Source of the DNA: Nitrososphaerota archaeon
Lineage (GTDB): Archaea > Thermoproteota > Nitrososphaeria > Nitrososphaerales > Nitrososphaeraceae
Assembly (NCBI GenBank): GCA_005877075.1
Contig: VBPX01000032.1
Coordinates: 22,480 to 86,479 of the forward strand
Reading direction: 5' to 3'
Length of the DNA: 64,000 nucleotides
A program made the position numbers and the translations under genes. Shown in pieces: positions 25,375 to 46,021 of this stretch. Position 1 is the first letter of the stretch; each line of letters opens with the position of its first letter. The notes under the pieces are model-generated. The model had not been told where the DNA came from. It did not search any database and saw nothing but the letters and a program-made list of their open reading frames with translations.

Positions 25375-25489
25375 TAATAAATATAAAAGAATCTATTATA
25401 ATTGTTAAGGAGCAAAATTTACAGCACTGACCTCTTTTTAATCAATTTTTCGTAAAGTTAAATTATCCCTTAGTGTTTAGTATTCCTAA

Positions 25490-25602
25490 GCCGGCCATAG
25501 TAACAGGGTGCGACCCGGTCCCATTCCGAACCCGGAAGTCAAACCTGTTATCGCTGTTGTGTTACTGATCTACGTGAGTGGTTGGGAAGCAGCAGTGCTG
25601 GC
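25490..25602 (+). rRNA. rrf: 5S ribosomal RNA
   Basis: The segment from GCCGGCCATAG to GTGCTGGC folds with its ends (GCCGGC against GCTGGC, one G-U) as helix I. The interior carries the conserved GGGTGCGACCCGGTCCCATTCC-like loop B/C and CCGAACCCGGAAGTCAAACC. It is about 113 bases, slightly under 120, so the mature ends may extend a few bases. It stands alone, away from 16S-23S, as is normal in this phylum. Confidence 0.9.
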
Positions 25603-25624
25603 ATTTTTATACTTTACAATTTTT
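25603..25624 (+). terminator. T-rich terminator after 5S rRNA
   Basis: ATTTTTATAC followed by further T-rich sequence directly follows the last helix of the 5S RNA. Runs of T are the normal archaeal termination signal. Confidence 0.45.
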
Positions 25625-45718: not shown

Positions 45719-45834
45719 TGCGGGAGGTGGGATTCGAACCCACGAACCCCTGAAGGACAGGATCCCCCATTTATAAGATCTTAAGTCCTGCGTATCCAAA
45801 CTTTTGTTATTTGGCCAGGCTCTACAACCCCCGC
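45719..45834 (-). tRNA. tRNA-Leu(UAA) with two probable introns
   Basis: The minus-strand transcript begins GCGGGGGUU and ends CUCCCGCA, so the acceptor stem pairs (one G-U). The T arm is GUGGG-UUCGAAU-CCCAC and the variable arm is long (class II). The anticodon stem CAGGA/UCCUG encloses CUUAAG, then a 16-base intron (45764-45779) after position 37. The D-loop holds about 17 extra bases (roughly 45796-45812) flanked by CCAAA and UUUGG, which looks like a second intron. Removing both gives an 83-base mature tRNA. Confidence 0.85.
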
Positions 45835-45947: not shown

Positions 45948-46021
45948 GCCTTGGTAGCTCAGCCTGGTAGAGCGTTGCCTTGGTAAGGCAAAGGTCCCGG
46001 GTCCAAATCCCGGCCAAGGCT
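45948..46021 (+). tRNA. tRNA-Thr(GGU)
   Basis: The 74-base tRNA pairs GCCUUGG with CCAAGGC and has discriminator U. The anticodon stem is UUGCC/GGCAA around UUGGUAA, so the anticodon is GGU. D arm GCUC...GAGC and T arm CCCGG-GUCCAAAU-CCGGG-like are intact. No intron is visible. CCA is not encoded. Confidence 0.93.

Follow-up and report, generated by a model that had tools for sequence, protein, structure and literature searches.

The window, a 64,000-nucleotide stretch of DNA, carries on its minus strand a tRNA-Leu(UAA) gene with two extra segments, one in the D arm and one in the anticodon loop. Read on that strand, positions 45719-45834 consist of GCGGGGGTTGTAGAGCCTGGCCAAAT-AACAAAAGTTTGGAT-ACGCAGGACTTAAG-ATCTTATAAATGGGGG-ATCCTGTCCTTCAGGGGTTCGTGGGTTCGAATCCCACCTCCCGC-A, with the UAA anticodon, the long variable arm and the 7-bp acceptor stem of a class II tRNA-Leu(UAA). 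The features of the locus, and the evidence used for each, are as follows:

45719-45834, minus strand: tRNA-Leu(UAA) precursor gene, 116 nt including the discriminator A73, CCA not encoded (sequence, ARAGORN on the spliced form, orthologues)
45809-45834, minus strand: exon 1, tRNA positions 1-23, GCGGGGGTTGTAGAGCCTGGCCAAAT (D-stem covariation)
45794-45808, minus strand: predicted D-arm intron at 23/24, 15 nt, AACAAAAGTTTGGAT (D-stem pairs in 41/41 orthologues, bulge-helix-bulge helix CCAA/TTGG, covarying inner hairpin, orthologue L161 lacking it)
45780-45793, minus strand: exon 2, tRNA positions 24-37, ACGCAGGACTTAAG, with the anticodon UAA at 45781-45783 (sequence, covariation, ARAGORN)
45764-45779, minus strand: predicted canonical intron at 37/38, 16 nt, ATCTTATAAATGGGGG (position, exon CTTA/intron TGGG as central bulge-helix-bulge helix, orthologue L162 lacking it)
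45719-45763, minus strand: exon 3, tRNA positions 38-73, with the class II variable arm (ARAGORN on the spliced form)
45948-46021, plus strand: tRNA-Thr(GGU), an uninterrupted, divergent neighbour, given for context only (ARAGORN, Rfam)
25487-25606, plus strand: 5S rRNA gene

In the window, and likewise at the loci L032, L033, L037 and L040, a divergent tRNA-Thr(GGU) gene lies immediately upstream of tRNA-Leu(UAA). This arrangement, which the window shares with at least two other families, is an old gene order.

The tRNA-Leu(UAA) gene was missed by both ARAGORN and the Rfam tRNA model, which reported tRNA-Thr(GGU) as the sole tRNA of the window, and it was not among the 39 matches of a whole-genome search with RF00005. 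ARAGORN found no tRNA in the precursor when anticodon introns were allowed, and none after the anticodon intron alone had been removed. Removal of both segments gave a tRNA-Leu(UAA) of 85 nt with the discriminator A73 (84 nt without it), so that excision restores a standard tRNA fold, as judged by ARAGORN and by the D stem. These results bear out the first-pass annotation in its description of a tRNA-Leu(UAA) with an extra D-arm segment and an anticodon intron, and in its expectation that a standard class II tRNA would be left once both are removed; the length it gave for that product, 83 bases, was too short.

Position and conservation of the D-arm segment

Orthologues were sought in 61 genomes, comprising the genome of origin and 60 relatives. 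About 30 genomes of the same family yielded full-length orthologues with 81-95% identity, and other families in the order yielded more distant ones. That the gene is a decayed pseudogene, or its D-arm insertion an assembly artefact, might be suspected from the failure of standard tRNA finders to report it; some 30 independently assembled genomes of the family conserve exons and insert at this level, which, together with the structural constraint on the insert, in effect refutes this explanation, whose probability we put close to nil. The gene is real, apparently functional and deeply conserved.

Forty-one orthologues, parsed by motif, were used to place the segment. With an intron at 23/24, the pairs 10-25, 11-24 and 12-23 are standard in 41/41, and the changes seen in them are compensatory: A12-U23 to C12-G23, U11-A24 to C11-G24 and, in L033, G10-C25 to A10-U25. 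The base that follows CCAAA in the parsed orthologues is U where position 12 is A, and G where position 12 is C. When the last base of the segment was taken as position 23, pair 12-23 formed in only 2 of the 41. Since the 23/24 placement alone restores the D-stem pairs, the segment comprises 15 nt (45794-45808) and interrupts the 3' strand of the D stem.

Orthologues with a single intron were taken from the matches listed in a class-wide pattern search, which matched 199 of 300 genomes. One of these, L161 in genome G060 (AGCCTGGCCAAAGGCGCGGGACTTAAG), is without the D-arm insert, and its D arm reads CCAAAGGCGCGGGACTTAAG, the exact spliced joint of its relatives; it retains an anticodon intron and contains an additional segment between variable arm and T arm. 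The reverse state occurs in L162 (genome G041), where the D-arm insert is present and the anticodon intron absent. The two insertions are thus independent, because each has a clean empty site that matches the predicted joint.

The first-pass annotation had rightly recognised an excess of bases in the D arm, but it estimated about 17 bases in the D loop and regarded CCAAA and UUUGG as the two borders of the segment, whereas CCAAA belongs to the exon and UUUGG to the intron. Under the boundaries so implied, about 17-19 nt of the CCAAA...UUUGG stretch would be excised to leave the joint CCAAAUACG. Spliced variants of 81 and 83 nt are likewise taken for tRNA-Leu(UAA) by ARAGORN; nevertheless, pair 12-23 then fails in 39 of the 41 orthologues and the intronless L161 retains CCAAAG, and these boundaries can be given practically no credence.

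Were the mature tRNA to keep the segment, as a structural variant of tRNA-Leu with an enlarged D loop, the presence of the segment in nearly all of the orthologues found would be accounted for. Such retention is nonetheless highly improbable, as the segment varies widely in sequence and in length (13-27 nt), the flanking exon pairs form only upon its removal (41/41 versus 2/41), ARAGORN does not recognise a tRNA that retains it, and L161 has a normal D arm. About 30 same-family orthologues have the insert, as do members of at least eight families in the order, and the changes seen are compensatory; this confirmed that it is more than a chance feature.

Bulge-helix-bulge structures and the splicing endonuclease

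The pairing between CCAAA and UUUGG that had been proposed as a bulge-helix-bulge (BHB) was upheld in its core, CCAA in the exon and UUGG in the intron forming the central helix. This helix is complete in 38 of the 41 orthologues and has one broken pair in the other 3; among 73 distinct sequences its four pairs are standard in 72, 73, 73 and 70. The 4-bp helix lies between two 3-nt bulges that contain the splice sites, of the forms A-U/G|N and A-N|A/G, and a cut after the second bulge base therefore falls exactly at 23/24. The minimum free energy fold of the precursor also shows CCAAA and UUUGG paired, and the conclusion does not rest on it.

Further evidence was obtained from the inner helix of the D-arm intron. 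Of 73 sequences, 69 have a standard first pair, with A-T, G-C, T-A and C-G types all occurring; the second, third and fourth pairs are standard in 59/72, 48/65 and 45/56. In controls in which the register was slid, the fourth pair dropped to 9-16; the first pair stayed high at +1 and +2 (64 and 61, of A-T and G-T types only) because of a T run. The inner helix (HBh' form) thus covaries across the order, while in the window itself it comprises only 2 bp and in the closest relatives of the window just 1-3 bp.

An outer helix, in which positions 16-19 pair with 25 and 27-30, is formed in 69-73 of the 73 sequences; it was not counted as evidence, since its bases are constrained by the tRNA itself. 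It seems rather unlikely that the D-arm intron serves as a folding switch. Under such a switch, bases 16-19 would pair with position 25 and anticodon-stem positions 27-30 as long as the D-arm intron is present, the anticodon stem of the canonical BHB would be blocked, and the D-arm intron would therefore leave first in a strictly ordered splicing.

The 16-base insertion after position 37, previously called canonical, is so by its 37/38 position, by its CTTA/TGGG helix and by its absence from L162. Exon CTTA pairs with intron TGGG in the window, and 27 of the 40 orthologues scored, the window included, have the complete helix; the changes among TGGG, TGAG, TAAG and TAGG preserve the pairing.

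The earlier suggestion to check the subunit type of the splicing endonuclease was followed up in the genome of origin, which encodes two PF01974 proteins, each with PF02778 as well; exactly two PF01974 proteins are present in most of the 61 genomes. The alpha subunit (199 aa) is most like Aeropyrum pernix 3p1z_B and has Tyr136, His144 and Lys174, the last being Lys or Arg in relatives. Its Lys54, conserved in 30/30 alpha subunits, aligns with Lys44 in the crenarchaea-specific loop of the A. pernix subunit, and this loop lysine enables A. pernix EndA to cut non-standard sites (PMC6379350). The second subunit (241 aa) most resembles the M. jannaschii enzyme, and its catalytic histidine is lost in 12/12 relatives compared and kept in the copy of this genome. 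That copy (L043) was seen to have a full Tyr-His-Lys triad, and the 12 relatives without the histidine include one of the same genus; the triad possibly represents a reversion, or both subunits may be active in this species. The two predicted subunits, one with the loop lysine for noncanonical sites, fit an endonuclease of the (alpha-beta)2 type, which has been reported for Thaumarchaeota (PMC4090602, PMC3218864).

Taken from the sequence, the boundaries set by covariation, the single-intron orthologues, the conserved BHB and the endonuclease subunits, our reading is that this is, very probably, the tRNA-Leu(UAA) gene of an archaeon of the Nitrososphaeraceae type, with two archaeal BHB introns, at 23/24 and 37/38, which would be spliced by an (alpha-beta)2-type endonuclease. 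In the precursor, exon CCAA, just before positions 22-23, would pair with the UUGG that lies towards the 3' end of the D-arm intron to give two bulges, and cleavage would probably follow the second base of each (AU|A and AU|A). The canonical intron would be cut likewise, with exon CUUA paired to intron UGGG; the (alpha-beta)2-type enzyme would cleave both sites, and an RtcB-type ligase would presumably join the exons.

Occurrence in relatives and significance

The orthologues came from Nitrososphaera, Nitrosocosmicus, Nitrosopolaris and other Nitrososphaeraceae, with a few assigned otherwise, and the same site bears a D-arm insert in eight or more families of the order (f1, f2, f3, f6, f7, f9, f10 and f11). 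In six genomes of the same genus or family (G007, G011, G014, G020, G027 and G031) the search gave no recognisable tRNA-Leu(UAA), returning unrelated matches or other tRNAs, probably owing to assembly gaps or divergent introns. In G014, which is 99% complete, no gene of the usual form was found, and a gap, heavy interruption of the gene or its splitting may be responsible.

At L036, L039 and L041, from other families of the order, an apparent third insertion was observed in the T arm (for example, ...GTTCGAAACCCACCCAGTAGGTGGGCGAGTATCCCAC...). By eye, other leucine tRNAs of the family also look doubly interrupted. The tRNA-Leu genes L072 (in the genome of origin), L085, L087-L093 and L096, with anticodons resembling CAG and UAG, have insertions around the anticodon arm that are long or double, and ARAGORN misnames them.

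The first-pass annotation, sound in its structural inference, had called two introns in one tRNA uncommon, which does not hold for this clade. The pair recurs across the Nitrososphaeraceae and families related to them; among the relatives two interruptions are the norm, and such genes are already well known in the group. 'Uncommon' is inapplicable here because D-arm inserts are widespread and both a Caldiarchaeum case and a Thaumarchaeota catalogue are known. In the tRNAscan-SE 2.0 paper, 107 noncanonical introns were counted in Thaumarchaeota and a clade-specific model was built (PMC8450103); they resemble the D-arm intron in being short BHB introns outside 37/38 in a Nitrososphaeria-type genome, with no categorical difference. 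The tRNA-Leu[UAA] of Caldiarchaeum subterraneum is listed as multi-intronic, in a genome with introns in D, V and T arms (PMC3293823); it belongs to a related lineage, and the likeness is one of tRNA species and of having more than one intron. The multi-intron tRNAs of Thermoproteales (Pyrobaculum, Thermofilum) likewise contain two or three BHB introns each, and the endonuclease there is heterotetrameric (PMC3218864, PMC4090602), but Thermoproteales genomes have a much higher intron load, averaging 0.84 per tRNA gene (PMC8450103).

The D-arm intron provides a clean noncanonical case kept in at least eight families of one order. As it is conserved and either intron is rarely, and naturally, absent, the gene is usable for the study of intron gain, intron loss and splicing order. 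The main import concerns annotation: the UAA leucine tRNA of this genome is overlooked by ordinary tRNA finders, and the genome would therefore appear to be without a tRNA that reads UUA.
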